The position numbers and the translations under genes are program-made. Positions 2,257 through 64,000 of a stretch of DNA of 64,000 nt are shown piece after piece (position 1 is the first letter of the stretch; each line of letters begins with the position of its first letter). This stretch comes from Prostheceraeus crozeri (lineage: Eukaryota > Platyhelminthes > Polycladida > Euryleptidae). The stretch is taken from NCBI GenBank assembly GCA_907163375.1, contig CAJQUW010008605.1, positions 310,001 to 374,000 of the forward strand, given 5' to 3'. A model generated the notes under the pieces. The model ran no database searches and had not been told where the DNA came from. It saw only the letters and a list, made by a program, of their open reading frames with translations.

Positions 2257-2694
2257 GGAAATCATTCTCAATAGGCCTAATCATGGAATTCTAGATAATA
2301 ACACCTGGAATGGACACTCGCATTTCCCTAATACGGTGCGAGGCCAGTTATTCACGACGCATGCCGTCATTCATTTCAATGAAACTGTTGAGAATGAATA
2401 TCTTCCTACGTTAATGCATGTATTAACATCTCATATTCTAAAACAAGTATATGTACAGTACATGTATCATCTATTTTGCAATATGTTCATTTACCTTTTA
2501 AAAGCTCTAAAGTAGAGGACATGCCTAGTAGGTGCGTTAAATCAATAATATTCTCAACTTCTAAAAAACTTAAACTTCTTTTCTTTGCAGTTGCTTTTGC
2601 TTTTACGTCAATTTCAGACAGCCCCTGGAGAACTAATTTTGCGAAGCAATCATAGTAAAGATAGATCATTTCACACACACGATATCCGATAGTA

Positions 2695-3132
2695 CACTAG
2701 GTGACATGTCACGCGTAATTACGGAACACCCCAAACATTCTACGCGCGTACATACGCGCTGCACTGTCAGAAATCACTTGATCTGATGCTGTTAAAACAT
2801 GGGAATGTTTAGGAATACGCACGGGGGAGCTTTTATACAGTAGTTTCGCGTCGTCCACGGTTGTCTGCCGCTTGAACCACGGATGAACCGCTAAGCATGT
2901 TCTGTCTTCCCTGAACATGAAATTGAGGTCCTATCACATTGTTTATCCTCTGATACATGCAGACACATGAGACGCAAAGTCTATATAACAGGACTGCCAA
3001 CAAAAGTATACTAACTTATACAACAGATATTGCAGCAATGTCCCGCATAGCCACGGATGTTTGGGGTCATGTGTAATTATGCGTGGTTTACGCGTGAATT
3101 ACGTGTGATTGAGCGTGGCATGTCACCTAGTG
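2695..3132. mobile_element. Small non-autonomous TIR element (MITE-like), copy A
   Basis: The ends are inverted repeats: CACTAGGTGACATGTCACGC on the left, and on the right its near-perfect reverse complement ending in CACCTAGTG. Similarity continues inwards through GTAATTAC-type motifs to CCCCAAACAT, so the arms are about 45-80 bases with gaps. The length is 438 bp. No convincing target-site duplication is visible. A 69-codon minus ORF inside (2709-2918) has no recognisable domain. A 63-codon minus ORF just outside (2487-2678) stays open in both copies but is also unrecognised. Confidence 0.7.
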
Positions 3133-3319
3133 AAGCTTTCATAGAAAATGTTTGATTTGATACAGCATGATCACTAAAATCAGGCTCAGGTAAGGCCCAT
3201 AATCATCTGATGTAGCTTACCAGAACTAAGAGGGAGAGAGAGAGACGTTTATTGATTCTTGAATGCTAATCAAAATATATCGAAGTGAAGATACAAATTG
3301 AGATTTGAAAATCATAAAA

Positions 3320-3890
3320 TAAGTAAGTGACTCAATCATGAAGTGTAGATGACGCGATTATACACACTGATGGTAAAAAAGAATTGCGACGCAAGGAGTT
3401 CTGCAAAAAGGCACTGAGATGCGACCACTTGGTAGAAACACTGGATTCAGAAAATGCAACAGAGTTTTGGCATTGGAATTATTTCGCAGAATGTTCTGCG
3501 ACAAGCTAGACCTTCTCGAAGAAAGATCTTTAGACATAGTAATGCCCTTGATTTTTAGGCATCGTCTTTGAATTTTGTCTACGGAGTTTGACTGTTCTTG
3601 AGATAGTCCGATGAAGGCAGGACAGGCATACTCCGTGATAGATCTTATGATTCCATTGAATATCATCAAGAATTCCTCGTCGCTGGTAAAAGATTTAATT
3701 CTCCGCAGAATATAGATGCGCTGAGCACATTTTCGTTTAATCAGCTGGATATGACTTTTCTACTTCAAATCACTGTCCATCATAACTCCTAAAAACCTCA
3801 CACTGTTTTTCAAAGATCACCAACGGAATCTTCGATTCGACATGCAATTGATTATAAAATGTACCTCGATAATAGACGAAGCCTCTATCG
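3320..3890 (-). pseudogene. LINE (non-LTR) reverse transcriptase C-terminal fragment, copy A
   Basis: Minus-strand reading frames encode the segment that follows the RT palm in non-LTR retrotransposons. Recognisable pieces are a FLGVMMDSDLKW-type motif, an IRSITEYACPAF motif and VDKIQRRCLKI. These match the region after the reverse transcriptase domain in jockey/CR1-type LINEs. The endonuclease and RT core are absent, so this is a 5'-truncated insertion, the usual outcome of target-primed reverse transcription. A short GA-rich tract at 3230-3246 lies beyond the 3' side. The reading frame is broken near 3660 relative to copy B, where the same region is open. Confidence 0.7.
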
Positions 3891-4190
3891 TCCTATTCAG
3901 CCATGTAACTGAGAAGTAATTGCAATTACTTTACAGTCAGAACTGTTAAATATTCTTTTTTACGCACTTTAAATTACTTTACTCTCCTGGTCGATGAGGT
4001 GGTCGATATTTAGATGTGTACCCGGTGTGTACAACCATGGAAAGTTTCATTCAAAGAATTTTACGACGAAACTTCCTGATTACAAAATGTAAATCAGAAA
4101 ACTACCATGACTTAATTTTCCCATCGGTAAAAGAGAGGCAATTAGTGATTTCTTCTACAGTAGATACCTGGGTGTGTTTTATATCCTTAA

Positions 4191-7115
4191 CCCATTTTTG
4201 ACCGAATTTTTGATTTTTATATTAGCAGTAATTTTGATATATTTTACCTTGGTACATATCGAATTCACGATTTTTTCTTTCGGAATTTCATTATTGCGCT
4301 CAATATTTGAAATTCAAATTTTGTTCCATAAGTGGAACTGTGAGCATGAAAGGTAGCATTCACTTTGTTCCACAAGTGGAACTGTGAGCATGAAAGGTAA
4401 CATTCACTTTGTCCTCCAGAAGTGGAACGATGAGCTCTGAAGGAACAGTCAATTCAAAGATATTCTCATTGACGTTAAGTTTTCAAAATTTATTGATTGC
4501 TTAGAGACAACACAGACGGTGATAAGCAACACATTATAATCAATGAAACCCAATTCAGTTTTCAAATATCAATAGACCATTATCAAACTTAATTTTTTCA
4601 ATGAAACAACAGAATCAAGAATAAACACAAATTATCTAAACACAAACTAACACTAAGGTTTTAAAAGTTCACTTCAAAATTAGTTTCCAACAGAATGAAA
4701 ATCAGCAAAACTTCGTTCATGCAAATTCACTGAGCATTTCAAACACATCTTCTTAGTGTTTGCTCGACACAGAGCACACCTATTCTGTTTAAATGCTGGT
4801 CCAATGTTATGATCACCCACATTGGATTTCCTCAAAGTCAAAGGCACTCGTTTTTCGAGGCTCATGTGCTTTGCTTGTGGAGGTCTTCCTCGACATGGTC
4901 GTTTTGTTCGCGCCAGAGACAGATAATTCTGAACGATATTTCTTCGAAACGCAAGTTGATCCAGATCATGTCCGGATTTTCGATGTAATTGCCATGCATT
5001 TTGCATTGCCGACTACTCTATCGCAAATAAAAACAACGGCCACCACCACTTCTTCGAACGAATGGAAGTGGCGTAATATGACATATTCTGGTCCATCCTG
5101 TCTACACCGCCCATGTATTTGTTATACTCATGGATCAATCGTGGTGGTTTTATTGTTACCTTTTTCTTCGACGCCGCTGACCATCGGGAAGCTGCAGACA
5201 TAGGTTCGATGTCGTGTGCCGTGCTGACGACGTGAAAAACTTTATTATCGTTAAAAACAACTACGATGGTCTCAGTAATAGTGTCAACACGAAAAAGAGC
5301 CCCTTGGTTCTTTTTTAAGTTCCTTTTGATCTTTCAATGGGCATTTCTTTGTTCTGTTCGACATGATGGTACCTGTGAAACCAAGATTTTGCCGGAGAAG
5401 TCGATTACATAACTTCAGCGAAGAAAAGAAACGATCACAATAAATATTGTAGGGAAGATATGGTACACTTTTTAACAAACGCAAAACTACACTTGCTCCC
5501 AATCCAAGCTCAGGATCAATCTGCGATTTACCTTGATAAGGATCAAAATCAATTAAGTAACCTTTCGAGTCACATAAACACCAAATCTTATACCCATATT
5601 TCAGAGGCTTATTATGAATGTACTGCTTACCACTGTGTTTGCCGTAATATTTTGCCATTGCTTCATCAACACACAGGTTTTCTGGAATGTGATCCTTGAT
5701 TAAATTTGAATAAATGGCTCTCAGCTTGTCGAATAAAGGACGAACTTTGGCATACTTGTCGTTTTTATCCAATTGATCATTGTCACTGAAATGTGAATAC
5801 TTTTTCAGCAGTTCGAAACGAGCTCTGGACATCGCATTACAAACGAAGGAATTTGTTGTTTCAGTATCATCTTCCCACATCATCCTCCATCGTAGAACAC
5901 TGATGTAACCGGAGATAAAAAGAATTCCGAGAAAAGCACGAATTTCGACCTTGTCAGTCTGAAACGTAAAATCATGGTAGCGCTGCGCAGCATAGAATTT
6001 GAACATGTCCACTATCCACTCAATCATTTCATCAGTCATCACCGATTCAAAACATTCAACAGGATTATTTGGAAACTGTAAAGAATTTTCAGTTGGAAAA
6101 GTCCCCGCTCTTTTGGATTTAGGTCACGCTTGACCCAGGAGATCACCGACTCTGACATACATGTAGGCACATCAGCATTCGTATGAACCGAAGGTAATTC
6201 GTTGATTTCATGTGATCGTGTACAGAAATGTCCTTCAACCGGAGCAGTCAGTTGTCGTCTTGATAAATTGTTCACACTAAAACACTCATCCTCACTCCCA
6301 CTGTCCTCATCAGACTCTTGGCCGTCACCTGGCGGTTCCATCATAATCTGGGCGCTGGCAATATCATCGTCGTTTTCAATAATGCTGACTTCATCGAGCG
6401 TGTATCTTTTCGACATCTTAGTTAAAAAATGAAGATAGATAGCGTTTATGCACGGCAATGGAAAGCCTAAATATCAGAGATGCCTATTGGCTATCGAGTG
6501 ACAGGTAATTTCTTTCAACAAGCGCTGTGGTGGCAGACGTCAGATTCCAGCGTCATATGAAGGGAAGATATCCATGCACCTATGAGAGTTTCGAAAGGCT
6601 TATTCCATCTGTGGCGTAGATATTGCACGTATGATAACTGATTTTATTCAATCTTTCAACGATCGCTGAGTCAGCAGAAGTAGCTGTTGATAATATCATG
6701 TTTCGAAAGTACTGATACCTACCATGCCCACAGTTCCACAAGTGGAACAAATTTTGAATTTCAAATTTAACAGCGTAGGATCTGTTTCAAGACTGAGATT
6801 GCATTAAAGCATGACAACCTCAATACGAACAATACATTTAAAGTGCTATTTCGTTGTTAAACATATTTTTTTATATCAGATTAGAAACAAAAAGAAAAAG
6901 ACGTATTTAATCTTATGAAATTTTTGGAATAACTCAGGTATTCATGCATTTCAGAAGCATTGTGGTTATGAAGAATGTCATGTTTTAGATTTTATATCAT
7001 CGGCTGCTTCAATTATTATGTCTAGTATACAAATTTTTATACAATCAGTTTTCATTGCCTCTCTAACTTAATTTTAAAATTTTGTTCCACTTCTGGAACT
7101 GTGGTCAAAAATGGG
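4191..7115 (-). mobile_element. piggyBac-1, full-length element with TTAA target duplication
   Basis: The element is bounded by TTAA at 4187-4190 and 7116-7119. Its terminal inverted repeat is CCCATTTTTGACC, perfect at both ends. Copy B has a single TTAA (46283-46286) with both flanks joined, which proves the 2925-bp boundary. Near-identical subterminal units of about 44 bp, TTGTTCCANAAGTGGAACTG followed by TGAGCATGAAAGG, repeat at 4320-4440. The same GTTCCAC/GTGGAAC palindrome recurs at 6729-6752 and 7083-7100 near the other end. It carries a nearly complete but broken transposase on the minus strand. Confidence 0.95.
4680..6416 (-). pseudogene. piggyBac-1 transposase, broken by two frameshifts and one stop
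   Basis: The protein would be near the usual 550-600 residues. The likely start is at 6416 (MSKRYTLDEV); the N-terminus is acidic. The catalytic core includes CVDEAMAKYYG, the first Asp in CLCDSKGY followed by FDPYQGK, the second Asp in IYCDRFFSSLKL (the family usually has DNFF or DNWF) and the third in GGVDRMDQ. The C-terminus carries a cysteine-rich zinc-binding tail, CALC-x7-CLKC, then FADFH. Frames are lost near 6110 and 5285, and an in-frame stop sits at 5010-5012. The enzyme excises and inserts at TTAA in the nucleus; this copy cannot make it intact. Confidence 0.92.
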
Positions 7116-7524
7116 TTAAATCAATTTCAAGGGGGCATACTTAACTTAATAAAGTTTCCTAGAATCCAGAAGTCTTGATATGTCAGCACCGCATTTTCAC
7201 TTTGAATCTTAGATGTAAGGCGGAAGCACATGAGGAAAAATGCGGCAATTCTATATCAACGCTACAAGCGTGTTTGGTTTTTCGGGGAGCAATTGTAATT
7301 AACATAAGAATAACCCGGACAAAGAAATGATGGGAAGACTTATAGTGTAGCAGAGGCAATTATCGAAAGTGATTGAAGTGTATTTGAACAAAAAAACGGA
7401 ATAATTTGCAGTTGTTATCAATTACACTTCATAAGTAATTGACACAAGTATATACATCATATACCTGTAAAATGACAGTGCCAGTATTTAGCCAGTTTTC
7501 TGCTGATGAGTTGCTATAATCGCG
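7116..7524. other. Non-coding spacer after piggyBac-1
   Basis: This stretch is shared with copy B (about 46283-46693). I see no ORF with recognisable content. Runs of short AT-rich words are the only structure. Confidence 0.5.
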
Positions 7525-8531: not shown

Positions 8532-9260
8532 ATAGTCCGGCAGCCAGAACGAGTTTCTGCAGGGAACGAGGCCCACAATGAGACTTTCACAGAATAATGT
8601 ACACCCTATGCCTACTACGAATTCGCGCGTCTGCCGAGTTCTAGTGAATTTCCCTTCTTGTCAGACAGGATCAAAGAAATACACATGTAAATCCAATGGG
8701 AGGCAGATTGCAGTTTTTGGTCAAAATGAAATTTTCAATGTTTTCGCTTATTACGGTAAAAATACTCAGTCAAGAGCCATAATTTTTGGCATGAAATGTC
8801 TTCAAGTCATTTCTCATCAAGTTCATGAACATTTATCTATGAAACTACATGCATTCAGATTTGACAAGCCTCCTACTGTCGGCAAGCACCAATATGTTGG
8901 CCCACTTTATCCATATTCAACCACATTATCGTATACATCGCCGATCAGAAGCATGATAATATGACATACACATGGTAGGAAATGACCTGAAGACATTCCA
9001 TGCCAAAAACTGTGGCTCTAGACCCAGTACTTTTTAATTGATAAGAGAAAACACAGAAAATTATATTGTTGACAAAAATTGCAATCTGCCTCCCATTGGA
9101 TTTACATGGGTTTTTCTTTGATCCTGTCTGACAAGAAGAGGAACTCACTAGAACTCGGCAGACGCGCGAATTCGTAGTAGGCATAGGGTGTACATTATTC
9201 TGTGAAAGTCTCATTGTGGGCCTCGTTCCCTGCAGAAACTCGTTCTGGCTGCCGGACTAT
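8532..9260. repeat. Fold-back (inverted repeat) element, copy A
   Basis: The left arm, 8532 to about 8820, and the right arm, about 8975-9260, are reverse complements of each other at high identity. The outer ends are ATAGTCCGGCAGCC and its complement. Both arms, read outside-in, encode the same peptide start, MRLSQNNVHPMPT, followed by SRVCRVLV and CQTGSKK. The spacer is about 150 bp. No target-site duplication is evident. The peptide is not one I recognise; it may derive from a mobile-element ORF or be incidental. Confidence 0.85.
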
Positions 9261-9715: not shown

Positions 9716-10147
9716 TTAAGAATTTAATTTTGCCCACTTACTTATATGTAGTAAGTTCCTGCATGTGCCATCGCTTTGAATCAGTTTGCCTTCTAGTAAA
9801 GTGATGCTCTTATACAATTTAATTGTGTGGCCATTAGCTTCATGACGACACGCCAAGTGTAAGCGAAAGATTTTGCAAATTGCCTTCAATCCAACTTTCT
9901 TTGCCACAACTTGAATCTGCTCATGTACACCAGGCATATAAAAGATTCGCAATACTAGAGCTTTTTCTTCTCCTCTCTGTCTTGGACAATCGTTAACTAT
10001 TATTTCCCTTACAACACCTTCTGGATATCCATTTTTCACAAAAATGTCCTTCAGTTTCATCTGTTGTTCTTGAATCTGTGGACCTTCATGATTGTTTTTA
10101 CCCGCTTTCTCAAACACGAGATGACCCCCAACTTCATCTCGTATCAT
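9716..10147 (-). pseudogene. Penelope-like element, segment between RT and endonuclease, copy A
   Basis: The minus ORF contains IFVKNGYPEGVVREII and, further on, LRIFYMPGVHEQIQVVAKK. Penelope-like retroelements have a NGYP motif near the end of the reverse transcriptase and a later Y-x-PG-x-x-E-x-I stretch (the usual form is PYIPGVSEKI-like) before the GIY-YIG endonuclease. Neither catalytic domain is present, so this is a fragment. It lies head-on against a plus-strand GIY-YIG piece starting at about 10150, so the two come from different insertions or from an inversion. Confidence 0.65.
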
Positions 10148-10149
10148 CT

Positions 10150-10545
10150 CGTATCGTGTGGCTAAGAAAAGTTGGATTGATGGTGCGATGTTCCAGATCC
10201 CAGTCTCTGGGGGATGTAGTCAGCCATCAGAAGGTGGACAAGGCAGATATGATGGACATGGGAGGAGTGATTTACAGACAGAAATGTGGAGACTGTGACA
10301 AATGGTATGTGGGCGAGACGCCACGAAAAGCAGGGGTGAGGGAGAAAGAGCATGCAGAGGATACGCGTGAGATGAATCCTCGATCGGCTATAAGTGAATA
10401 TTGTCACACAGCATGATCGCCGGCCCGAATTTGAGACTTTTGAAGTAGACATCGGAACAGAGACGGATTGGAGGAGATGACAAATCAAGGAAGGAAAACA
10501 TATCCGCAGCAATATCAAATAAGGCTGCACTCAAACAGTTTTTAA
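10150..10545 (+). pseudogene. Penelope-type GIY-YIG endonuclease fragment, copy A
   Basis: The plus-strand frame encodes GGVIYRQKCGDCDKWYVGET, the hallmark of the Penelope-type GIY-YIG nuclease: a VIY strand, a Cys-rich insert, then YVGET. An Arg/Glu-His stretch (RKAGVREKEHAE) follows and ends in EYCH. After a stop near 10414 the reading continues one frame over with a PEFETFEVD segment and the tryptophan-containing tail usual in this family. The nuclease nicks target DNA for insertion. This copy is isolated from any RT on its strand and is frameshifted. Confidence 0.8.
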
Positions 10546-10605
10546 CTAATAGACCAATTAAATTGATGAAGAATACTTGAGAAAATGCTGTCTAATGAAA
10601 ATGTA

Positions 10606-11370
10606 CCCTCACGAACATTTTTCATGAGAACTCATGAAATTTAATGCGGATTCATGAGATTTTTATGAGAGCTCATGAGGTTATGATGAATCTCATGATA
10701 TTCTCATAAGATAGTATTTAACTCATGATGTTCTCATGATGCCTTTATGAGAATATAATGAGTGGTAATAAGAACATTCATGAGGATAATATTTCATGAT
10801 GCGTTCATGAGAAAATCATGAGCATTCATGAGGTTTTTGTGGAAATGAGCTTATAAGTAGCAAGGTATGCATGTCAGCCGCGAAAGGGTAATGACATAAG
10901 AAGGCTTATTCAATCGATAAGAATCTCCAAGTTTTGTCTGTAAAGGATAAGAAGCAACAATATAGAATGTATCATAACGATCTGCAACAGCCGTCTCTAG
11001 ATGATGCATAGATAATTTGACTTTACAATTATATGCTGAAAATAGAGATATATACAATCACAATTCAAAATCTTGTCATGATAACAATACTGATTCTTTA
11101 TTGTGAATTCTGAATTAGCATTGTGAACATGGCGTGGTAATGATCAGGAGAAGGTGGTGGCGAGGCCAAGAATGCCTCAATGACTAAATGCCAGAAAAAT
11201 AAGTTCAGAAGTATGAAAGAGCAACTGTTAATTTATTAATGAGATTTTCATGACAAAATCATGAAAGTTTATGAGATATTTTCTGCGAAAAAATTCCAAA
11301 TCCGCATGAATTTTTATGAGATATATATGAGAAAAAATCTCATGAAAAATCATGAGGAATTTTCGTGGGG
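10606..11370. mobile_element. TCATGA-rich non-autonomous TIR element, copy A
   Basis: The element is flanked by TA at 10604-10605 and 11371-11372. Its ends, CCCTCACGAACATT and the complement of TTTCGTGGGG, form an imperfect inverted repeat. Inside each end lies a dense array of the palindrome TCATGA and its extensions CTCATGA/TCATGAG. More than a dozen occur in 10620-10850 and about eight in 11240-11365. The middle has no transposase. The TA duplication suggests Tc1/mariner-type mobilisation, inferred from the TSD only. Confidence 0.7.
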
Positions 11371-14028: not shown

Positions 14029-14030
14029 TA

Positions 14031-15531
14031 CAGATTGTTTCATAAAAATGGATCACCCTTAAACATCGCATTAACTTCAACTTTGTCTAACTCCGCCAAA
14101 CTTGAACGAATTTCTCTGAAATTTGGAAGATGTGTCAGTTGTGCTTACTAATATCATTGTTGGAAATTTCAAGCATGAATATTGAGTTGTTTTCCTGTTA
14201 TAGATAAAAAAGTAGTAGATAATTTGATCTTCATTTAGCAATGTTACACAAAATCATACCTCACTCTTATGAAATTACATTTGTTTCCTTTGTTATGTAA
14301 TATGTTGTTCTACAAGCCAAAAGCTATCAAGCAAAACAAAGATAAAGAAAATCGGTCAATCAGAGCCAGTATAGCACCATTATTCATCAACAATAATGTA
14401 ACTGCTACATGTGATTAACTGGACTTCATGTTCCATAGCTTCCTGACTTCGTTGCGGTGGTGTTGGCAGCACTCCTGATTGCTTTCAGCTAGAAATCTAT
14501 CTCTTACCGGTTGAAAACAATACAAAGCACAAATGAACAATAGCGAGATCGCATTCACAAAAGGCAAAGTGTCAGCCTTGCCAGAACTAGGTTTTTCTTT
14601 GCGAGCTACAAGCAAGCGACTAAATGTCCCTTACACAAATGTGCATCGATGGCATAATGATGATTTTCGACTCTGTCGTAAAGAGGGCTCTGGCCGTCCA
14701 CGCAAAACATCCAAACGTAGAGACCGCCTAATTTTGAGATTTGTTAAAGTTGATCCAAGTCTCTCGTTAACTGAGATGGCTGCACTAGACTCGTCTATTT
14801 CTAAGTCCATTATTCGTAGAAGACTTATTGAGTCGAATTTCAAGAGCTGTAAGAGGCCCTCTCAGATCGAATTATCAGATCACCATACAAAAAGACGTCT
14901 CAGATGGGCAATGAGTCATTGTCACTGGCGAAATCAATGGGATCGGGTTGTCTGGTCTGATGAGGCATCAGTCCGTCTGAAGGATAGTGATGGTCGATTG
15001 AGATTATGGATAAAATCTGATCAGGAAATTCCGAGACATTTACATCGTCCCCGGGTACAAGGTGGTTATTTATGGATGATAATGCTACGTGTCACAGGAG
15101 TAGTAGAGTCAACTTATGCAAGTCTCAATTAGGGCTTAGTCTCACTCTTGGCCAGCTCGTTCTCCTGATCTGAATCCCATAGAAAATGTATGGAGTATTC
15201 TAAAACGTAACGTTCGTGGTTCACTGCTACCTACAGATGGCGTATCACAACTTACGTCACTGTTAAAAAGAGAGTGGAGAAAGTTAGATCCGTCAAAAAT
15301 CAACGATATCATCGAATCAATGCCTAGACGAATTGGTAATGTCATTGACAATAAGGAGGGCCACAAAATATTAGCTTCTTAAGAACCGTTGCTGTATCAT
15401 AGCTTATCAGATTATTTTAGGACATTTAAATATATTAGGGACATGAAATAATATGAACAATGCTTTCTGTATCATACTTATGTTTTATTTAGTCAAATTT
15501 TAGGATGATCCACTTTTTATGAAACGGACTG
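14031..15531 (+). mobile_element. Tc1-like transposon with TA target duplication, copy A only
   Basis: TA at 14029-14030 and 15532-15533 flanks a 1501-bp element. Copy B has a single TA at 53440-53441 with joined flanks. The TIRs start CAGATTGTTTCATAAAAATG on the left and CAGTCCGTTTCATAAAAAGT on the right, about 28 bp with a few mismatches and an indel. It carries one transposase pseudogene on the plus strand. Confidence 0.95.
14533..15382 (+). pseudogene. Tc1-like transposase, internally deleted and frameshifted
   Basis: The N-terminus is a helix-turn-helix pair (LGFSLRATSKRLNVPYTNVH) followed by a GSGRPRKTS hook between the two DNA-binding subdomains. The first catalytic Asp is in VVWSDEASV. 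After VQGGY the usual 40-50 residues are missing, and the sequence resumes one frame over with the second Asp in DDNATCH. A further shift gives the third acidic site in WPARSPDLNPIENVW. The normal length is about 340 residues; the first frame stops at 15132. The deletion and two shifts make it inactive. The D-D-E spacing suggests a DD34E Tc1-like enzyme. Confidence 0.9.
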
Positions 15532-49555: not shown

Positions 49556-49557
49556 CT

Positions 49558-49955
49558 CGTATCGTGCGGCTAAGAAAAGTTGGATTGATGGTGCGATGTT
49601 CCAGATCCCAGTCTCTGGGGGATGTAGTCAGCCATCAGAAGGTGGACAAGGCAGATATGATGGACATGGGAGGAGTGATTTACAGACAGAAATGTGGAGA
49701 CTGTGACAAATGGTATGTGGGCGAAACGCCACGAAAAGCAGGGGTGAGGGAGAAAGAGCATGCAGAGGATACGCGTGAGATGAATCCTCGATCGGCTATA
49801 AGTGAATATTGTCACACATCATGATCGCCGGCCCGAATTTGAGACCTTTGAAGTAGACATCGGAACAGAGACGGATTGGAGGAGATGACAAATCAAGGAA
49901 GGAAAACATATCCGCAGCAATATCAAATAAGGCTGCACTCAAACAGTTTTTAACT
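49558..49955 (+). pseudogene. Penelope-type GIY-YIG endonuclease fragment, copy B
   Basis: This matches 10150-10545 almost base for base, with KCGDCDKWYVGETPRK and the same EYCH stop context. The break in the C-terminal part is shared with copy A, so the fragment was already dead before duplication. Confidence 0.78.
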
Positions 49956-50013
49956 AATAGACCAATTAAATTGATGAAGAATACTTCAGAAAATGCAGTC
50001 TAATGAAAATGTA

Positions 50014-50778: not shown

Positions 50779-50943
50779 TAATACACACGGTTTTGGCTTC
50801 TTTAAAACAAAAGCCCTGATTTTCTGAAAATTGACTTTTTTATTGAAATTTTGGGGAATCCTGTGTAAATAATTATGGAGAGCATAAATAATTTAAATTA
50901 TCAGAGGAATCATGTTTATTTGTTACAATAAACAATATCTTGA

Positions 50944-52317
50944 CACTACAAAGACCGAAACTGTGATTAACCTAGGAAGACCATGGTGTCAATTTTGTTA
51001 CCTTCCATAAAATTCTGAGTATTTCATATTATCAGAGGGTTTTATTAAAAAATTGAGCTCTAAATGCGATTTGATATTCAAACTTGAAGTCTTCAAGTTT
51101 AATTTCATCACAATTTTCCATGACATATTGAATGTGTGCTCAACTGTAAGCTGATAGGCCTATTGAGACATAATCACGCAAACTGAAGTTGTTACCAGTA
51201 TCAATCATGCATTTTTGCTATCTACCGTTACACACGTATGTGCATACTATTTCCAATAATATCCACAATATTGACAATAGCTTCAAGGTATCGCTTCTCT
51301 TATTTCAACTGTTTGGATAAAACATTGTAGGCCCAGTGACTTCAAAGTTTGCCTGCATCATGGCACTACACATTCCTTTCGTGGATCGCGTACATGGTAC
51401 CCTCCACAATTTCTGCAAGAATATCATTAATCGTAGAGCTTCTTGCAACCTGCCTGCAAGAATTTCCTTCTTTTATGCCAGATGAAGCAGATGAATGATC
51501 AGTCATGACATCAGTACACATGCTTTCCATTGAGAATTTTACCAACTCATCGATGAGCAAGAGAAAGAAACTCCTTCGCGAAATTGTATACACTTTGACA
51601 ATTCTTTTATGAAAGTTCAACTGCTGAACCCGAGGATGTTTGACCATTCGATAAAAGGCCGTCAACGTGAGGCTGAATGAACCGGTGACGTGACAGATGG
51701 TTGAAACGTCAACACGACCATTTTATTCACGTTGCAGAACTACAATTACGCGAGGCATTTTGCCATCAGATGAAGATGAAGATCAGCGACAAACCGACAT
51801 CCAATTTTGCATTGGTAATGCACAAGCATATATGAATTATCTTGTTGCCTATAGAAATTTGTTATACGAGCTAATTGCTACGTAGAGACTGCAGAAACTA
51901 TCTATGCGGCGAGTTTACATTGTTTGATCTAAATGTACCAACTAATACAGTACCAATTGACTTCAGGTACCGAGCAAGGCGTGAGGACATGAAAAAAGTG
52001 TAAAATAAAACATTCCATCCGAAGCCAAGAATATGTGTAGTTACACTACACTCCCTGTATATGACAGATTCTAAATTGCTCAATGCTTCATAAACAAATT
52101 CAATTGTGGTATCAAAACTGACTCCTTGATCTTTGTAGGTAAACGTATTGTCATGGACCCCAAAAATACAAAAGTAGTTTTTAGTGTATCCGATATGCTT
52201 AGCACAGCAAATCAGGAAATTTCTGGACGCCAAATAATGATTCGACTCGATCTGCTACAGCTTTGACATGTTAACAGTTGGTTTGGTGTCAAAAAAGACA
52301 CGTTGGTCTTTCTAGTG
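50944..52317 (-). mobile_element. Decayed piggyBac-2 relative, copy B
   Basis: The ends are CACTACAAAGACC and GGTCTTTCTAGTG. Between the copies, A has kept the better left end and B the better right end. The target flanks are TTGA and CTAA. Remnant transposase frames lie at 51366-51665 and 51898-52233. The second-Asp motif, DNFF in copy A, reads YTFF here, so the Asp has been lost. Confidence 0.75.
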
Positions 52318-53441
52318 CTAAATCATAAAGTTGCCACTATTTATAGTTTCGGAGAAGAGGCTGGTGGTTCAATGTTTCCCCTACATATAGTAAAAGCACT
52401 GACCATAATTTTGTTCAAATCCTGAGCACTACCATTATCACAGGCGAGATAATGAGTATAAGTCAGATACATGTGAAAAGAAAATGCGGAATCAGAAGAG
52501 TCTTTCTCAAGTCCCGAATCGCATGGAGATGACAGAAACACGGTACGACAGAAGGAGGGACATTGCATTCTGCTCAATATCGTTCGAATTCAAAACTATC
52601 GAATTCGTCTCAATTTACAGCAGGCGATCAATAGAGACTGGGCGATTATTCGTAAATTCCTTTTGAGTTATGAATAAATTAAAACATTTACTATTCATGA
52701 ATCGGTTGCAAATACTGCAGATATTTGATTTTTTTCAAAATTTGAATACAATATTTAATATTGTATTATAAAAATATAAATTATGTAATTATAATATTGT
52801 AATATTTAAATACACTCAACTGTAACGTTTTCCTCCATATAAATGTTCGTTACGCAATCAATCTTTGCTTGCAGCATCAGCTCAGTATCAAGGAATTCTT
52901 GTATGAATCTCAATGGGTGACTGGCATGTAGAACGGAGCTACATGGCTCTAAAGATGGTGGAAACATAGGGTCCGCTAGAAGACACAAAAAAATTAAACT
53001 TATCTCACAACTTCATGTATTCTTGTTACCCGCAATAACTATGATAATTGTGCTGCTGTATGTCAGTGTGGTTCACATCTGTGATATTAAGCGGTAACCA
53101 GAATATTGAAAGCTACACCAGGCTTTCGAAAAACGTGCTTTTTCAAAAAATGCCGAAAATGGTTGTTTTCAAGATGGGCTATCTTTTTTCTATATACCAG
53201 TTTTGACTCCAAATTGATGCTGAAACTCAGAAACATGGCCAATTCCTTTTAGAAGATATTTGATCTGGTATCCGATAGTTAGAGTGGTATCAATTGGCCA
53301 ATTTTGATTTTGCTCATTTTTTCAATATATGATGTCAACATTTTATAAGTAGTATCGAGATGTAGCATTTATAGTACAATAGCACTTGAAAACCTTAAGT
53401 TGGTGTGCAGAAAGACATTATTCCTTTTGATAGATATTATA

Positions 53442-53700
53442 TATGAAACTTTGATATATTGCAATAGAGCCAGGTATGGCTTTCGATGTTCGAGTTTTGT
53501 TGAATTAGATATACTTTATCAATCAACATTCGACATACAAGAAGTCTTCTACCATTACGCAGACGCTCAGCGACCTATTATAACTCTTTTGTAAAATACT
53601 CGATGTATACATGACTTTGCCTTTGTGTATTTCACCTGTCCTGTCATTACCGCCATTTGTTTTGACAAAATAAAGAATTCTTATTATTATTATTATCGAC
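53442..53700 (+). repeat. Possible LINE-type 3' tail ending in (ATT)n, copy B
   Basis: Same AATAAAGAATTCTTATTATT end as copy A. Here it is uninterrupted with the upstream 53400s, showing the empty Tc1-like target. Confidence 0.4.
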
Positions 53701-54330
53701 ATTGTGCTTTTGAATAGTCAAGTTTTTGCGAAATACTCAGGATAGATTTAACATACTGTTTTCTGAAGTAATCAATTGCTTTTAAGAATTTCAATTATCC
53801 TAATAATGAGATATCATTCGCAGCGAACCTGAGAAGAGCCAAAATGAATGAATTTCATGTTGTGATCGTGTAAATAGCTTTTGACTGACTCACTATTGCA
53901 GAATGTTTTCTGAGTGAAACCCACGAACCATTGATATTGTTGGTAATATATATAGTTGGTAATCTTTTAGGCTGTTGACAACCTAAAAGTAGGAGAAATA
54001 ATGACTCATCTGATATCTATGAATGTCACCAAAGTAAAAGGATCTGATTAATTGCAATCAGCAAACCAACCTGTTCAGTTATCAGTCTAACATTAAAAGA
54101 ATGAGAGGTTCAACTATAGGTGCAAACGATCAGTGCAATATCATGTTATTAACCCTTTCATGCATATTGTACTCTGTTGAGGACATTTTGACCACAAGTT
54201 TTGGGAAATATTGATCCCAAAGCGGCAAAAATTTGCAACCAAAACAATGAGGAGATCAATGCGCTTCTAATGGCATCTCTCTTGACTTCGTACAATCCCT
54301 AGAACGCCCGCAAATTGCATTTGAAGAAAA

Positions 54331-54957
54331 TTTTTATTTTTCGAAAAAACTTTAATTTTGAAAAAGATTTATGCATCAATGAGCTAAAAAATGATTTCAC
54401 ACTTTAATGCCAGCCTTTAATTATGAGAAACGCCAAGACATGGAATATAATGGACAAGCGAGTGTTATGTGGCAAAGCAAGCGATAAGTGGTTTTTGTTG
54501 AATATTTTATCCTCTACGCTTACACGGTTTATGACATTATATTCAGTGGCGTCGCATGCGCCAGACCATGGGCCTTCCCTCGGCATTGGAATACTATTTC
54601 TATACCAGACATTTTTACGTTACAACATTAATTTTCATAAAAATTGAATTTTTAATAACAATTTCCTGAACATTTTTTAGGGCCAAATGAAAGTGCACAT
54701 GAGAAGTGACTGCTCATGTCTCTTAACCGCCTTACTCAAGGAGCAGAGATCACTATATCCCCTCTCTGTCTAGACCACAATTTCTCGAGAAAAAAGGAGG
54801 CAAGGCCAACAATTTCTTGCGTTTCTCATGGCCGGTCAGCCACTCACATGTTTGAAACTTTGATGCATTAAAATGTCTTGTGTATTTCTTATTTCTTTCT
54901 CTGTGAGGACTTTCAATTTTTATATCAGTTGTTGGCATACCTTGCTTGACGACTGTC
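54331..54957. other. 627-bp segment present in copy B only
   Basis: Copy A joins GGAGAAAAT directly to CTTTTCAGTATATTCC at about 16395-16410, whereas copy B has about 627 bases between the equivalent points. Copy B's extra sequence completes a reading frame that runs into shared sequence, so a deletion in copy A is more likely than an insertion in B. No target duplication or terminal repeat is visible. Confidence 0.7.
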
Positions 54958-55022
54958 ATCTTTTCGGTATATTTCCTTCGGACGAAAGGCGTGGTTGTGA
55001 TCTCATCTGAAGTACTAAACAT
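54753..55022 (-). pseudogene. TTF-type zinc-finger fragment of a hAT-like transposase
   Basis: The minus-strand frame has NKKYTRHFNASKFQTCEWL followed by GHEKRKKLLALPPFF. This matches the TTF zinc finger of hAT/ZMYM-type transposases (W-x2-CeWL-x-G, then L-C-x-PC-LF), except that the second pair of cysteines is lost (LALPPFF). It would bind DNA at the N-terminus of the transposase. No RNase H-like core follows on this strand. In copy A the finger part is deleted. Confidence 0.5.
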
Positions 55023-55731
55023 AGTGTCACATCAATCACGTATAAACAAATTATGGAATTCTACCGAATCTTGGTGTTCGAGTCAGATGCATGCATTCAT
55101 TGGAGAACGCTCATCATTTGATCGCAGTCTTGCCTGAACGTCAGCCATCTGCTACTGTTGACGTAGTGGCCTCTCTGACATAAAGCGAATCCAGGAACAA
55201 TTGGGTTGCGCTTCCCTTACTATATTTAGATACCGCGCTTCGATCAAGAATCGTGTAGAATTACAGTGCAAAAATTGGAGAAGGCAAAGCATCATGTCTA
55301 TCGGAAAAGCCAAAATTGGCGCGGGCGCGTGCGCTTACTGCTTCACGCACACACAACTCTCTTTCGCTCTGTCTGAACATTAATGCTCCGTCTGAACACA
55401 CGACCAGCTTGTGTGTCTAATTGTTCGAAGAAAGCAGCTGTGATTCGAGCACCCGCTGCAAAACTGTTCAATGAGGTTGAGAGTCTGACTTTGAGACGGA
55501 AAGCTGTGCACAGCTGTCACGAGAAGCTATCGAATTTAAATGAATGATGACACTTCATTTTTATAATTGTTGGAAAATTATTTTTTAAGGATGCGCCGAA
55601 GGCCTCGCAGGTTCGGAGAAGACGCCACTGATTATATTGTTTCTATTTACAACAACGCAAAGGTGCAATGATGGTATTTTGAGATTATCAGACGTTAACA
55701 ACTGTAATAAAATTATCCTTAAATTCCATTA

Positions 55732-56648
55732 AAAAACGGACCACCTAAATTTCATTGAGATTCAATCGATTCTCAATCGTGTCGCACAACAACATGCCAT
55801 ACATCATTCGAGAGCGTGCATTTTCAGCTTTGAAATGAGCTATGATAGACTTGCATCCATTATTGTATTTTCTGAGCAGTTCTCAAAAAATGAAAATTAC
55901 TCAATTTACAACTCACAATTTTTCAAAAAGAAAACATATGAGTGTGATAATGAATCAGACACGGAGAGAACGAACATTTTCTGAGCTATCCTTTGACATA
56001 CTGGTCATCAAAATTGGTAAACTGATGAAAAATGAGTGATATCGTGAAGTTATCACAAAATTATGACTTTTTTGGTTGAAAATGTTATATTCTCACTTTT
56101 TCATCAAAAATGTTCATCTTTGGTATCTTCAGAATCCTTGCGATGTAAAGAGTATGAATATATAAGTTCAATAGTTCTTTTTTCAAACTTCTTCAATATT
56201 TTTTCTCATTTCCGCAAAAATAAACAAACACCACAAGCTGAATTAATGTTCAAAACAAGACAATTGAGGCAGCGTTGTCTTTGTTCATTCATAGCAGCTG
56301 GCGATTGCTTACCTTCATTTTTTGTTTACTTTGTTTAATTTTTTATCAGTTCACCGATTTTGATGAACAGTATGTCAAAAGAGAGCTCAGAAAATGTTTG
56401 TTCCTTCCGTGCCTGATTTATTATCATACTCATTTGTTTTCTTTTTGAAAAATTGCGATTTGTAAATTGAATGATTTTCATTTTTTGACCACTGATCAGA
56501 AAATGCAATAACGGATGCAAGTCTATCATAGCTCATTTCAAATCTGAGAATGCAGCTCTCGAATAATGTATAGCATGTTGTTGTGCGACACCATTGAAAG
56601 GCATGAGAATCGACTGAATCTGAATGAAATTTAGGGGGTCCGCTTTTT
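55732..56648. repeat. Long-arm fold-back element, copy B
   Basis: This is the counterpart of 17166-18080 with arms at about 55732-56035 and 56338-56648. The left tip has lost one G (AAAAAACGGACC). The arms in A and B are closer across copies than left versus right, so the fold-back is older than the duplication. Confidence 0.85.
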
Positions 56649-57056
56649 ATGTTCATCTCTGTAGAAGACAGAGAGATCAAGTTAAGTTGTTTCCTTTTAA
56701 TTCTTCTTTTCTTCCGACTTCTCAGACACACCTACACATCTCACACATCACACTCCTGTATCCTATAGTTTCGGCAACACCGCCTCACTTTTAAATTTAA
56801 AGAAAATACTCAGGTATCAGTTTTCCTCGCTCATCGCCTCCTCGTTGAATTCGCTTTATTCTATAGTGGAAGTTAGTGCATTTGATTTTGATAAATATTG
56901 CCACATTAAAGTTGAGTGACATCATTCTATCAATTATTTTCTTACAAATGTTTAATGCTATCATAAGTTGTGTTCACTAAATTTTCGTATATAAGCAGCT
57001 GCCCGACAACACAATAAACATAGCGCACTGATATGGTTCTCCGTACGGGAAGTCAG

Positions 57057-58452
57057 TCATGATGAAGTCGAATGAACAGTCTCTCCCAATTTTGCGACTG
57101 CTAATTTTATTTCAAAATACTCGTAAATACACACGACACACTTCGTCTACTGACTATTTCAGGGGTTACAAGCTGCTGCTGATGTACTAGTGGGTATATA
57201 TACAAATTTGCAAATGAAAGCAGCTCATCTGTTCAGCTCATGTCGTCTGTTTGGTTTTGGCATGTTCGTCGCAATTAACCGAGATTCAGCCACCCTAGTA
57301 GAAATTGTTGTTTGCTGTTTATCAATCATTTTGCAGTCGAAATTGTTAATGGTCATCACTTTATCACTGTGGGCTATCATCGCATGTTTACTCAGTGCAC
57401 TTTTCTTGATTTCATACCGTAAAGTGCGCTCATGTTCTCTATAGCGAACTTGAAATTGGCGACAAGTTTGACCTACGGAATTCCAGGTAATCTGAAATTC
57501 GAAGCTCGCATTTTTCCAGGTTTACTAGTGAGGCGCATTGGAGTATCACATTTATTTTTCATTTTATTGACTTTTCTCAGAACACCATCATCTCCAAGGA
57601 AATCAAGTGTCAAATTCACCTTGTTTTCTTCAATGTTTTTTAATTTTTGATTTCTATTTTTGCGACCAAACTCGCTAGGAACCAAAATCCTGATTCCTAG
57701 CGATATAAAATCATTTTTGAGTAATGGTCCTAAATTTCAGCTTCCTCATCGTTTTGACAATGATTTTCATAATGGTAGTGAAATTGCTATTGACAATTTA
57801 TCCTATAAATTACGTTGGTCTCATTCATCACTTAAACAACTGCGGGGTATCGGACATAAATAGAATGCGCATTCCTTTTGATAAAAATACCGTAGACTTA
57901 CCTCCACGAATGAGCGAACCCTTAGAAAATAATTTTAAACTGTTTGAAATAGAAGGTAAACGTGTTCTATACACGAAGAAGCTAAAATTCTTCAGAAAAA
58001 TAAGAAATAAAAAAGCATCAATAGTATCAATAAAAAAACTTGAACCTTTTTGAAACAAAGCAAATTATTTGTTGTTCCGTCGGATAAATCTAATCGCATA
58101 GCAATTTGTGAAGAAGATAGTAGAAAATGCCGCATTGAAAGTCTCCTTCATGATACAAGCACTTACAAAACTAGAGATGCTTCAAAAAATTCAGCAATAG
58201 AAAACCAAGCTAACCGCTTAGTTAGAATATAATCGCTTAGTTAGAATATTAAAATACAGTTCGTACCCAGCCAAATTTCAACTTAACATAAAAGATCACA
58301 AAAAAAAGAAAATAGATTTTCCCATTGCTCCCAATAGCGTCTACACTGTAAATCGCTCAATGCGAATCACATACGAAGGATGCATACCAAAATTTTTTTG
58401 GTATATTCCTGTATTCTCTTGGTATATATTTGTATGCTTTTCGTATGTTGTT
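57057..58452. mobile_element. Head-to-head Penelope-like composite, copy B
   Basis: This is the counterpart of 21373-22783, including the hairpin centre (57673-57704) and both half-genes. The right half has a few deletions (near 58230-58265) relative to A. Confidence 0.7.
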
Positions 58453-58676
58453 TCAAATGTAGCATGCTTTACATACCAAAGGCATACCATCACAATGTTA
58501 AAAGAAATCATAAATCATGTCCAAGCCTTTTGTCAATAAAGATCACAATAATGTTGTTCAAATTCAGCAAAAAATTGAATTTTTTTGCTGTACATTTTGC
58601 GGCTATTGCTGCTTAGCATATTTTTCAGAATATCGTGCGATTTTTCTGAAGGGTCAAAGCATTGAACCTTGACGTA

Positions 58677-59063
58677 TCAAGCACTATTTTTTGTAAAATT
58701 ATTTTTCACGTGATTCGGCAACCAGCTATCCTTGCGTAAAGATATGCCAGAATGGCAAGGTTTACTGTAGCAATTATGTTTTAATTTTTCTTTTACTGAA
58801 ATGCCAATGTCTAGAAAATTTAGAAAGTCAGTTTCTGGAACTTCTAAAGTAAATTGTATGTTATCATCTATGGAGTTAAAAGTATCTTGGATAGTCTGAA
58901 GTGCATTCTTATCTTTCGGGAATGGATCCAAGATGATGTCGCCGATATATCTTTTGTAAATTGTTGAGCAAATATTGTGATCATTCATCAATTTTTGTAG
59001 GGCTTTATTTTCTACACTGCTCATACAAATTATTGCAAACGGAGGTGCAAGGTGTGTCCTCAT
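58677..59063 (-). pseudogene. Penelope-like reverse transcriptase C-terminal half, copy B
   Basis: This is the counterpart of 23024-23410 with the same KRYIGDII active-site lesion and an intact 128-codon frame. The shared lesion predates the duplication. Differences are scattered (for example NIQFTLEVPE here). Confidence 0.8.
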
Positions 59064-60689
59064 CGGGCAACTATTTATTTGTAGGTATATCTTGTCATTA
59101 TACGTTATTTCATAATGATACGAGACAAATTTTTAAAGATCTACGACACCTGTAGAACTGAAACCATAAGTCTTGATTTGATTCCAATGTTGCTTAGCAC
59201 TGTCACTGTTTGTAGAGAACAACCGCTCTGACGGACGACAAACTTTATTGTGACATGCAGCATGAATAACATTCAATCGATCACGTACAAATGATTCAAA
59301 TAGGCGATTAACCTTTTCTATAGACAAATAGTCAAGAGCAGAGATACTATTTACTACAACGACAGTAACATGGATGCACCTTATATTCTTAACAGAGTAT
59401 GAGAGCTTGACCATAATAGGGTAAACTTTCCTAATTCGGACACTTTCCTAATTTGGACACTTCTAAGTAAAATACGAATATTACTAAGTCAAGATCAGCG
59501 GAATTGAAATTTTCGAAGACGCAGCCTGTATTCTATGCCATTCTAGTATATAAACCTTTAAAAGAAATTTTCTAAGTGATTAATATCACCACTGTATGAA
59601 CCAATTTTCATCCGAAAAGTCGTTCCTTTGTGTGTAAGAGCTAAGGATTGGCGAAAAATTCCTTAAGTTCAGAGTACAATTACGAAGTCAAACTTAAGTC
59701 TTTTCCATGAGTATTTTATATGAATTGACAGAGAAATTTCTGAAGTTTCTTTTGCAATTTGTCGCATGTTTCTAGGGAGCGTACTTTTTCTTCTAGAGGA
59801 CTTTGTGTATTTTTTTGTCATCTTTAACTCCGCTTGCCTAATTTGGACACTTTTTCAATGAATGACGACCCCACTTGCCTAATTATGGACAGTTTTATAA
59901 AAATCTTTTTGATGTAGTTTTTTCTGATAAATTCGAGTCATATGAAGTGATAGAGCCTTGAATGGGGATCGCAAAGAAGTAGCGATAAGTAAGTCATAAA
60001 ATTATCTAGACCGAGGGTGTCAACCACATTAATTCAACCACAGCTTTTGGAGGCTGTGGCCGATGGGTATACCATCCGTAATGTTACCAGATGCATTTAG
60101 TCCTCGTGCTACTAGGGTATAATGTACAGTCCATATATATTTTGTTAAAATGCTTTCATTTACATGAAACAGTGAGCTTCTTCCAAAGGAAATGACATTA
60201 GGGCGTAATACAAATCTCGTAGGCCTATTACAAATTCTCAACTATTAATTGGTTGAGGCTACACAGTTTATATCTAGTTTCCTTTAATAATCGACGATCT
60301 AGACGTAGATATTAAACAGTAACATCAAAATTTTGACACATATTGTCACATCCTATGTCACATGAAATTATTCTCAATAGACCTGAGTCTGAGCATTTTT
60401 TAGCTTGCTGAAGCAACGTATAGCCTAATAAGTATATTTTAAATTAATAATTTCTTACTGTGTCATCAGCTCTGAAGATCTTTTGTGCAACGATCGAAGT
60501 ACTAAGCTACATTGTAGAACAATAGATAGCTACTGTTAATATATAAATCATATCATTCGCTCCACTCATTGCCATGGCTTGATTGGAATTGCTTTTCTAA
60601 ACGTACAGTGTGTTCTTGATAGAGACGTGCTCAAAGAACATGTTCTATATTACCTCTTAGATAAAGTCTTTCACTTCAGGTCTACGGAA

Positions 60690-62477
60690 GGTCCGCTTAC
60701 AAAGAATTGCCAAAGCACACTCCGTGCCTCGAACAACGTTGCGAAGAGCATGGCTTTGCGAAGAGAATGATAATTCAAGATCATCAATAGGCCGTCCAGT
60801 AACAGTTACTTGTGAACAAGAGAAATGTCTTTGTGAACTTATTTTTGATCGTCAGAAAAGAGGCTTCCCAATGATGGTTGATTCGGCTAGGAAACTCGTC
60901 TTTGAATACTGTGAAATAAATCGTATTCCACATCGCTTCAATCGGACTGAAAAACGAGCAGGCTGGAAATAGTGGTCAGCCTTCAGGAAGCGAAATCCAA
61001 ATGTGACATTGAGGCAACCAGAGAATTTGTCGCGAAACCGAGCCTTGGGAATGGAAGAAAATCGAATCAAAGCATATTATGAATGTCTTGAGGCTACTTT
61101 GTCTGAGAAAGGATTACTTAACTCTCCAAGTCGCATCTACATGTACAATGTCGACGAAACCGGCATTCAAATTGTGACTAAGGGTGGCAAGGTTTTAGGT
61201 CAGAGAGGAGCAAAGAATGTTCAAATACTTTCATCTGCTGAGCGAGGCTCAAACACGATAATTGTTGGTTGCTGCCTATGCAGAGGGAGACTATATACCA
61301 CCAATGATTATTTTCAAAGGGACTAGGAAATCCACGATTGAATCACTACCTCCAAGATCACTGATTGAAGTTTCCAAATCTGGATGGATCGACAAAGAAT
61401 TGTTCCTCGCATGGTTTCGGCATTTCGTCAAACATCTTCCATATCGCTCTGATAATGAGAGAGTAGCTCTAATCATGGACGGTCACACAAGCCATGAAAG
61501 TGTTGTCTTATCTGAAGAAGCAAACAAGAACAATATGGACATTTTGAGGCTTCCGTCTCACACCTCAAATTATCTTCAACCCTTGGACGTAAGTGTCTAC
61601 GGACCCTTCAAAAGATCTTGGAGAGAAAGATGTCGTATTTACATGGATAGCAATCCTGGGTCGGTGATTTCAAGGGCAAATTTTTGAGAAGTCTTCACTG
61701 CGGCTTGGAATAAAGCATGTAAGCCTGAAAATGCCATCTCTAGATTTCGAAAGAGTGGTTTGTGCCCACTCTCATTCGATGCGATTCCTAAGCAAGCCTT
61801 CATCATTTCAAAGGAATTGTTGGGATCGTCTGCTGATGTGATATGTTTCGAAAATGTTTATTCCGAATTTGTATCACAGAATGATACCAATGTACTGGAG
61901 AACGATGTTCCAATCATACCGATAAATCCAATCGAAGAGGTAGTTTTGGAAATCGAATACAACACAGATCCGCCTGTAACCGATGACTCAGTCGTGAATC
62001 ATGTTGAAGAGACATCGTGTATGAGTGAGAGTTCTATGAACATCACCGACAGTCGAGCAGATGAAATTGTTGTCGATAATGATGGTTCCTCATACCTCGT
62101 ACTGGAACCAAGTACACGTATGGAGCCTCAAAGATCGACTGGAGAAATTTCCTTTACAGAGTTGCTGCAGCTTCCCATACAGTCAAGTCGGAAAGCAGCT
62201 CAAGATGCCTTCAAGCGAATGAAGAGAGCCTGCTTTAATTACTAGCTACCGTTTCAATGTTAATGTTAATGAGATACCATCAACATCAAGCATTCAAACG
62301 GATGAAAGTACATGTCCTCAATGTCTGATCTCATACTACAATGATGCAAGCGGAGATGACTGCCTCCAGTGCATGGAGTGTCAGAGGTGGGAGCATGCAA
62401 AATGCGGTGGAAAAAGTACTATCGGAACATTTTTTGTAAGGCATGTGTCAGAAACGTTATTGACTTCCTGACAAAAT
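60690..62477 (+). pseudogene. pogo-like transposase with C-terminal PHD-type finger, broken
   Basis: The N-terminal helix-turn-helix is HSVPRTTLRRAW. The second DNA-binding (CENPB-type) region includes GFPMMVDSARKLVFEYC, and after a stop (60970-60972, where Trp is usual) WSAFRKRNPNVTLRQPENLS. The DDE core has YNVDETGIQ, IMDGHTSHES and LQPLDVSVYGPFKRSW, all three acidic sites. The frame shifts near 61265 and has a stop at 61685-61687. A C-terminal PHD-like finger (62313-62460) shows CPQC, CLQCMECQRWEHAKC and FCKAC, with shifts before and inside. The gene is dead, but all catalytic positions are readable. Confidence 0.88.
62313..62460 (+). other. PHD-type zinc finger coding segment
   Basis: The cysteine/histidine order is C-x2-C, then C-x2-C-x2-C-x4-H-x2-C, then FCKAC, matching the C4-H-C3 spacing of PHD fingers within tolerance. 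A frame break near 62425 separates the last pair. It lies downstream of the DDE domain, in the frame of a continuous EIPSTSSIQTDEST linker. Confidence 0.65.
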
Positions 62478-62815
62478 AGCTTGACTGAATTTCATTGACA
62501 GAGTTTGACTAGTCCTATGCTACACGTACATCAATATAATTAATACGAAGTTGGATGACCTTTTTTACTTTCTCAATTCATAATTTCAGATAGTGATCGA
62601 GACTTCTTTGGACTTAATTTTTGTGTCTTACTGCTTGATAGGCAACAAAATAAGTGTCCATATTTAGGCAAGTAGTGTCCATAATTAGGAAAGTGGAGTA
62701 TTCAAATTAGGCAAGTGAGATGTAATGCTTTAGATAGGGTGTAGTCAAAAGTGTCCGAATTAGGAAAGTTTACCTTATACAACAACCTTATACGCCTCCA
62801 AGTTTTTACAAAACT

Positions 62816-64000
62816 TAGCTTACAGTTTCGCAGTCCGGGTACCTAACAGGCGGCCTTCGAATCCTTGAACTTCTTCGTACTACTACCGATTCTTCTTCAG
62901 CATCTTCATAGGACATATCGCGATCTTCATCTGATAGGTCTATCCTTGCCATTGAGTCTTCATCTATTGTCATCGTTGAACGAGGAACCGGACGAATGTG
63001 AGAAACATGTCTGCAAATGCCGTCGTAATTCAGAACAACCGTAACATCAGATCAAATGTCTGTTGCCATCTCTGGACCGCTCCACAGTTTGTTACATTTA
63101 CCGCTAGGAACCCACTCGTAAGGACTCAACTTCTCACCGGGACTCTTCGTGTTATTTATCCAGAATACGGTCTCTTCGACTGTTCTACCCGACCGCCTCA
63201 CTGCTCTCTTAACGGTCCTATGCATTATTTCAATTATCCCATTTCCTTGAGGCCTATATGCGCACGTGAGGATTTGTTCCACATTCCATCTCCGCAGGAG
63301 TTCGAGAAACGGTCGGCTTCGACATACTGTTCCATTATCTGATACACTTTGGTGGTCCAAATTCTGAGAACACTTGATTGAATTTAGCCACGACTTCCAC
63401 GCTTGATTCTCCAGATAATCGATGCCATATCGTGAATCTTGAACAAGTGTCAACCAGACTAAGATAGACAGTGTTATCGACATGCGTTAGGTCAGTTGCA
63501 ATCCGATGCCACTCGGCGCAAGATCAATTCTACTACACGAATCGCAGTTCGAAATAACTTTCTTAACCAGACCTTTTGAGACATCACCAAACTTTCTTTC
63601 ATTAAAGCATACGTCCTTTCAATGCCGAAATGACTGATCTCATGTAGCTCTTCTTGACTTCTTCCTCCGATATCCCTGTAGCAACACACGCAACTTCTGA
63701 ACTCATCTTTGTCCAGTTACGAGGGATTCGCGTGAGACAATCCGCTCCGTTCTTAGCCGACGCTATTCATTTGACTGTGATAGATAATCTACGTTCTTGT
63801 ATGATGTTCTCAATGATGTCTAATCGTCTTCGTATCAACAGTTCATACAGGGATCGGGTACTTGCTTGGCTTGCTTATAATTGCTTCCAGACATCTAAAA
63901 ACAGAAGTAGAATCGGTCATAATCCAAATTTCTCGATCACCCCATCTCAGGGCCGTATTCAGACCTCGAATGACGGCCTCTAATTCGCATACGTTGATGT
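62816..64000 (-). pseudogene. gypsy-like Pol: integrase and RNase H, copy B (runs off the window)
   Basis: This is the same gene as 23817-25278. The tail reads RIRRPPVRYPDC because of a 3-bp in-frame difference. In the core GIIERMHR has become GIIEIMHR; the catalytic Glu is kept. The zinc-finger region has an extra frameshift near 63595 (a missing base in a T run). The RNase H part is cut by the window end. Confidence 0.78.

Follow-up and report, generated by a model that had tools for sequence, protein, structure and literature searches.

A probable tandem segmental triplication with exchange between its units in the flatworm Prostheceraeus crozeri

We investigated a 64,000-nucleotide stretch of the Prostheceraeus crozeri genome (the window; positions 310001-374000 on the forward strand of contig CAJQUW010008605.1, here C7161), in which two near-identical sequences, copies A and B, follow one another in the same orientation. 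Most probably, the locus is a real tandem segmental triplication whose units have exchanged sequence, and A and B are parts of its second and third units. The contig (531,503 bases) is part of an assembly of 2,048,925,868 bases in 14,165 contigs (GCA_907163375.1), representing a large, transposon-rich genome. We read the unit anatomy from 264 kb of C7161, made by joining 210001-310000, the window and 374001-474000, and searched for copies genome-wide by scoring up to 40 first-look candidates per query. All statements about the units rest on the assembled contig sequence of this one assembly. C7161 carries three head-to-tail units on the same strand, of ~41, 50 and 41 kb, which directly abut one another. 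The units and the parts of the window that they account for are as follows:

C7161:256492-297428, + strand: unit U1, left of the window
C7161:297425-347149, + strand: unit U2, which holds copy A (from chained alignments)
C7161:347146 to ~388040, + strand: unit U3, which holds copy B and runs past the window end
Window 1-2256: rightmost part of an insertion of 7,793 bp that U2 alone carries (whole insertion C7161:304464-312256; empty site in U1 and U3)
Window 2257-25005, + strand: copy A, part of U2, from its alignment to copy B
Window 25006-37145, + strand: end part of U2, earlier taken for a spacer; partners at ~C7161:287000-297424 (U1) and 374000-388040 (U3), outside the window
Window 37145-37149: head-to-tail junction of U2 and U3 (breakpoint 37145/37146, C7161:347145/347146), matching the U1/U2 junction
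Window 37146-44352, + strand: start part of U3; its U2 partner (C7161:297425-304463, 99.0-99.3%) lies left of the window
Window 44353-64000, + strand: copy B, part of U3, cut by the window end; the unit continues to ~C7161:388040

A first-pass annotation of the window had described two near-identical tandem backbones of ~15 kb with a shared order of elements. Both the similarity and the shared order hold; A and B align on the same strand in seven collinear blocks, which run from 2257/44353 to 25005/64000 and together contain 348 mismatches over 15,173 aligned columns (2.29%; block range 1.49-2.65%). What fails is the frame of two copies plus a spacer, into which a view limited to the window had turned a three-unit array: A and B are parts of abutting 40-50-kb units, with a third unit to their left. 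Among the best 40 of 1843 candidates, three match window 10000-11000, in copy A, over its full length. All are on C7161: the query's own locus, copy B at 359408 (99%), and a site left of the window at 269925 (98%). A 3-kb piece of the supposed spacer (window 31400-34400) likewise has three copies on C7161, namely itself, 291679 (listed at 100%) and 383084 (94%). Chained pairs of units show 2.14-2.68% mismatches, including one 74.6% piece at the tail of U3. Position 2257, which had looked like an edge of the duplication, is the right end of U2's 7.8-kb insertion; U1 and U3 are continuous through that site.

The junctions between units recur almost exactly. U1/U2 and U2/U3 differ by one substitution in 121 printed bases (61 identical bases on the start side, one substitution over 60 on the end side), and the whole junction query matched solely at these two places among the 40 scored candidates. 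No N occurs anywhere in the joined 264 kb. A tandem segmental duplication consists of adjacent copies in the same orientation, each longer than 1 kb, collinear and more than 90% identical, and the three units are of this size, identity, adjacency and orientation. The array is a new example of an ordinary, known kind, a segmental duplication.

The same annotation had posed the choice between a young duplication and two haplotypes placed side by side. This was the right pair of alternatives, and duplication is favoured because there are three gap-free units on one contig, the junction recurs, and the divergence of A from B (2.29%) exceeds a likely allelic level of 1.24%. That level comes from contig C1095 (21,166 bp), which differs from the left flank of the array (C7161:243790-252812) at 111 of 8977 columns; C1095 is probably the other allele of this flank, although it may be a paralogue. 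Its presence suggests that the assembly keeps some alternative-haplotype sequence, and C1095 carries its own ~3-kb TTAA-flanked insertion, hence insertion differences occur between C1095 and C7161 too. False heterotype duplications, in which an assembler sets two haplotypes of one locus side by side, are described as common and linked to heterozygosity in PMC8081667. However, such an artefact should leave two copies only, diverged to the allelic level. Here there are three units, the junction is repeated without a gap, A and B differ by significantly more than the two presumed alleles do (Fisher p = 3e-9, with sites treated as independent), and none of the three unit pairs keeps to the presumed allelic level throughout. 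The simple two-haplotype form is unsupported, and we regard it as very unlikely. The third copy can also make the presence or absence of transposons evidence on the choice between duplication and haplotypes.

The closest pair of units changes along the array. Over 28,987 three-way columns, U1 and U2 differ by 2.29%, U1 and U3 by 2.51%, and U2 and U3 by 1.96%. Penalised segmentation of this alignment gave four blocks, whose divergences in the same order are 2.57%, 2.85% and 0.65% in block 1, at the unit start; 2.46%, 1.66% and 2.24% in block 2, the largest, in the middle; 3.61%, 3.81% and 1.22% in block 3; and 0.37%, 3.18% and 3.10% in block 4, at the unit end. The identity of the odd unit switches 357 times over 969 informative columns, compared with 632.6 +/- 14.5 times after shuffling, and none of 5000 shuffles was as low. 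Within block 2, U2 leads as the odd unit without dominating (207 sites, against 127 for U1 and 97 for U3). These patterns fit units that are mosaics produced by unequal crossing-over or gene conversion. In a two-unit array, unequal crossing-over would be expected to leave a middle unit whose start resembles its right neighbour and whose end resembles its left one; blocks 2 and 3 would call for at least two exchanges, or for an exchange involving an unsampled haplotype.

A mixed case, in which a true two-unit array was joined by one unit from the other haplotype or by a phase-switched consensus, could explain some of this pattern. In the largest block, in the middle, 1.66% separates U1 from U3, which is close to the presumed allelic 1.24%; the switches between blocks could partly be phase switches; and the scored candidates include no separate contig with alternative units. 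However, the close pair differs between the two ends (U2-U3 at 0.65%, U1-U2 at 0.37%), in both cases below the presumed allelic level, while U1 and U3 are 2.85% and 3.18% apart there. We consider this mixture improbable, though less so than the simple haplotype artefact.

A further contig, C10180 (76,970 bp), matches the left flank and the unit start at 92-97% and has further unit sequence, 93-95% identical in the longer pieces; the 288-bp tandem array found just before U1 is missing from it. This contig looks like an older duplicate, and we used it as an outgroup over three stretches totalling 2963 columns (two stretches in block 2 and one in block 1). Where U2 is odd, C10180 agrees with the majority at 22 sites and with the odd unit at 22; the corresponding counts are 22 and 8 where U1 is odd, and 29 and 4 where U3 is odd. 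By this outgroup, U1 and U3 share 22 derived states (U2 being odd), U2 and U3 share 8, and U1 and U2 share 4.

The structural differences between the units mostly follow the same local topology. Those inside the window are:

Window 4191-7115, - strand: piggyBac-type element, U2 only, with TTAA at 4187-4190 and 7116-7119, the Pfam domain DDE_Tnp_1_7 and an empty partner site
Window 14031-15531, + strand: Tc1/mariner-type element, U2 only at that site, with a TA target and the Pfam domain HTH_Tnp_Tc3_2
Window 18628-21203, - strand: second piggyBac-type element, U2 only, with a TTAA target and DDE_Tnp_1_7; empty in U1 and U3
Window 48078-48383: insertion resembling a short interspersed nuclear element (SINE), with the 8-bp target duplication ATGGTAGG, in U1 and U3 and absent from U2
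Window 54336-54957: 622 bp in U3 that are absent from U2, a difference between A and B
Window 59419-62775, + strand: pogo-type element, U3 only, with a TA target, inverted ends and the Pfam domain DDE_1

We compared 14 structural markers with the unit that is most often odd in the nearest 2000 columns, and 12 of the 14 split the units in the same way. The markers were picked by hand from the unit chains and draw on overlapping sets of columns; they are therefore not independent, and the shuffle control applies to the switches only. The set does not take in the 622-bp difference with its covering gap in U1, the gap in U3 next to the second piggyBac, the U3 tail, the gaps of 90, 108 and 170 bp, or smaller gaps. 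U2's 7.8-kb insertion agrees with its local majority narrowly (16 sites against 14 and 9). At the SINE-like segment, U2 is most often the odd unit (39 of 65 sites), and U2 is the unit from which the segment is absent.

The first-pass annotation had proposed reciprocal clean insertions with empty partners, all postdating the separation of the copies. For the two piggyBac elements and the mariner in A and the pogo in B, each confined to a single unit at its site, this fits; it does not fit the SINE-like segment, which is not private to B but common to U1 and U3, with an empty site in U2. Within the window, A and B by themselves resemble a simple young 15-kb duplication with an unrelated spacer and later transposon hits, without exchange. 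We give that reading no weight: the spacer is unit sequence, a third copy exists, the SINE-like segment is shared by U1 and U3 and not U2, and local topologies switch.

A real tandem triplication with exchange could have arisen as follows. In the original tandem duplication, the unit start would have become attached to the end of a dispersed repeat (C7161:296864-297428) at a match of 3-4 bases, TTA(A), perhaps by a non-homologous or microhomology route. Recombination between homologous repeats was considered as the origin of this first duplication and rejected; comparison of the left flank with the unit end gave no match longer than 12 bases. Unequal crossing-over between units would then have produced the third unit, and further exchange or gene conversion may have turned the middle into a patchwork. 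DNA transposons would have entered single units, and some were possibly carried to a neighbour, or lost, by exchange.

Several observations weigh against this account. A model with one crossover fails in block 2, where U2 lies 2.46% from U1 and 2.24% from U3 with no dominant odd unit, and in block 3, where U2 once more lies close to U3 (1.22%). Among the 14 structural markers, the U2 mariner and the U3 pogo contradict the local majority of single-nucleotide differences. None of five queries turned up an allelic contig for the units in its 40 scored candidates, although the left flank has one (C1095); one of the assembled units may thus represent the other haplotype. However, the right flank (404001-405500) also has no second full copy among its 40 scored candidates, and the missing unit contigs are therefore uninformative. 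A second tandem duplication on the same contig (C7161:435983-453764 and 453765-473648) has a divergence close to the presumed allelic level (198 of 13,969 columns, 1.42%), and each of its copies carries its own insertions. The case also comes from the contig sequence of one individual.

The array has relatives nearby. Further unit starts lie upstream at C7161:79226 and 121091, both preceded by left-flank sequence (interrupted by ~3.7 kb before 79226), and a partial match to window 2257-3085 occurs at C7161:116310. Five unit starts in two clusters on one 531-kb contig, the diverged relative on C10180 and the second duplication at 435983-473648 form the setting for a broader reading, which we put forward only tentatively and hold to be rather doubtful: that this region grows by tandem segmental duplication of 20-50 kb, and that recurrent exchange among the units maintains their mosaic state. 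If so, transposon insertions would serve as datable markers of exchange between repeats that seem to be non-genic.

Other repeats surround the units. A tandem array with a 288-bp unit occupies C7161:252820-256013, just left of U1, with shifted copies 99.7-99.9% alike, and C1095 stops at its edge. Part of that contig (C1095:1-8829) is an array of a ~303-bp satellite that adjoins the presumed allelic left flank and switches orientation near 4.5-4.7 kb. At the other end of the array, U3 terminates in a palindrome with arms of ~2.1 kb (385949-388040 and 392311-390223, 98%), the inverted arm running back from the unit end.

Both piggyBac elements in A have TTAA duplications and inverted ends along with their DDE_Tnp_1_7 domains. 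A TA duplication and inverted ends accompany the Tc-type transposase domain of the element at 14031-15531, and the pogo element combines a TA duplication and inverted ends with DDE_1. At the second piggyBac site, B (U3) reads TTGA and, beside the site, is without ~260-300 bp present in A and U1. Relatives of the mariner, 95-98% identical, occur in a 7,095-bp insertion in U1, in U3 (C7161:381748-383076) and on C10180. It had been suggested that the transposons are still active, which these copies do not show. Transposase coding regions lie in several open pieces in the piggyBac and pogo copies, with the likely pogo coding region in at least four, and the two upstream pogo pieces scanned have no Pfam match. 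No near-identical source of the pogo element was seen, because the best match other than itself is 97% identical among the best 40 of 136 first-look candidates. The 622-bp difference had been considered as an insertion in B, and this was rejected; a relative (C7161:463342-464304) runs through the right-hand breakpoint in A, and the difference is probably a deletion in A (U2). U1 is without ~840 bp at this site and hence cannot arbitrate between the two.

The segment described as SINE-like shows two differences in 315 bp between U1 and U3. SINEs have a head derived from tRNA, 7SL or 5S RNA, RNA polymerase III boxes and a simple 3' tail. Neither an Rfam match nor, by ARAGORN, a tRNA was found in the segment; it contains a string, spotted by eye, that we take to resemble a T arm. 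Among the best 39 of 1793 candidates, the segment corresponds to one unit of a dispersed 273-bp repeat family, whose units recur head to tail every 273 bp and in inverted pairs (for example C1666:22129-23792 and C4575:52360-53203). Its ~26-bp terminal direct repeat matches the overlap between successive units. Such tandem and inverted arrays are unlike a plain SINE. The insertion of this family in B and U1 is hosted by an inverted-repeat element (window 8532-9215 and 47685-48672; arms of 238-283 bp, 89-90%), which the C10180 copy seems to lack.

We recognised no host gene among the 30 open frames scanned with Pfam, out of 147 of at least 75 residues in the window. Matches above the curated cut-off were to transposase and reverse-transcriptase-like domains; those below it were to rve, rve_3, RNase_H, GIY-YIG, HTH_32, DDE_3, DUF4846, DUF4093 and CooC_C. 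Rfam and ARAGORN searches of the window led nowhere.

If the triplication is real, it illustrates unequal exchange on a small scale, with single-nucleotide differences and insertions mostly telling the same mosaic story; it alters no general view of genome evolution. The inserted elements resemble known piggyBac, Tc1/mariner and pogo transposons in their TTAA or TA targets, inverted ends and transposase domains; we found nothing unusual in them, and their coding regions are fragmented in the copies seen. The array shares with the false heterotype duplications described in PMC8081667 the presence of near-identical, diverged copies in one assembly, but differs in having three units, no gap, a repeated junction and a divergence above the presumed allelic level. 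PMC2728738 describes two nearly identical duplicons on chromosome V of Caenorhabditis elegans, flanked by Cemar1 copies, for which unequal crossing-over was proposed. As in that case, we find large direct head-to-tail units with transposons nearby and propose unequal crossing-over; unlike it, the P. crozeri array has no homology found between its original breakpoints, three units at 2-2.5% divergence, and mosaic topologies.

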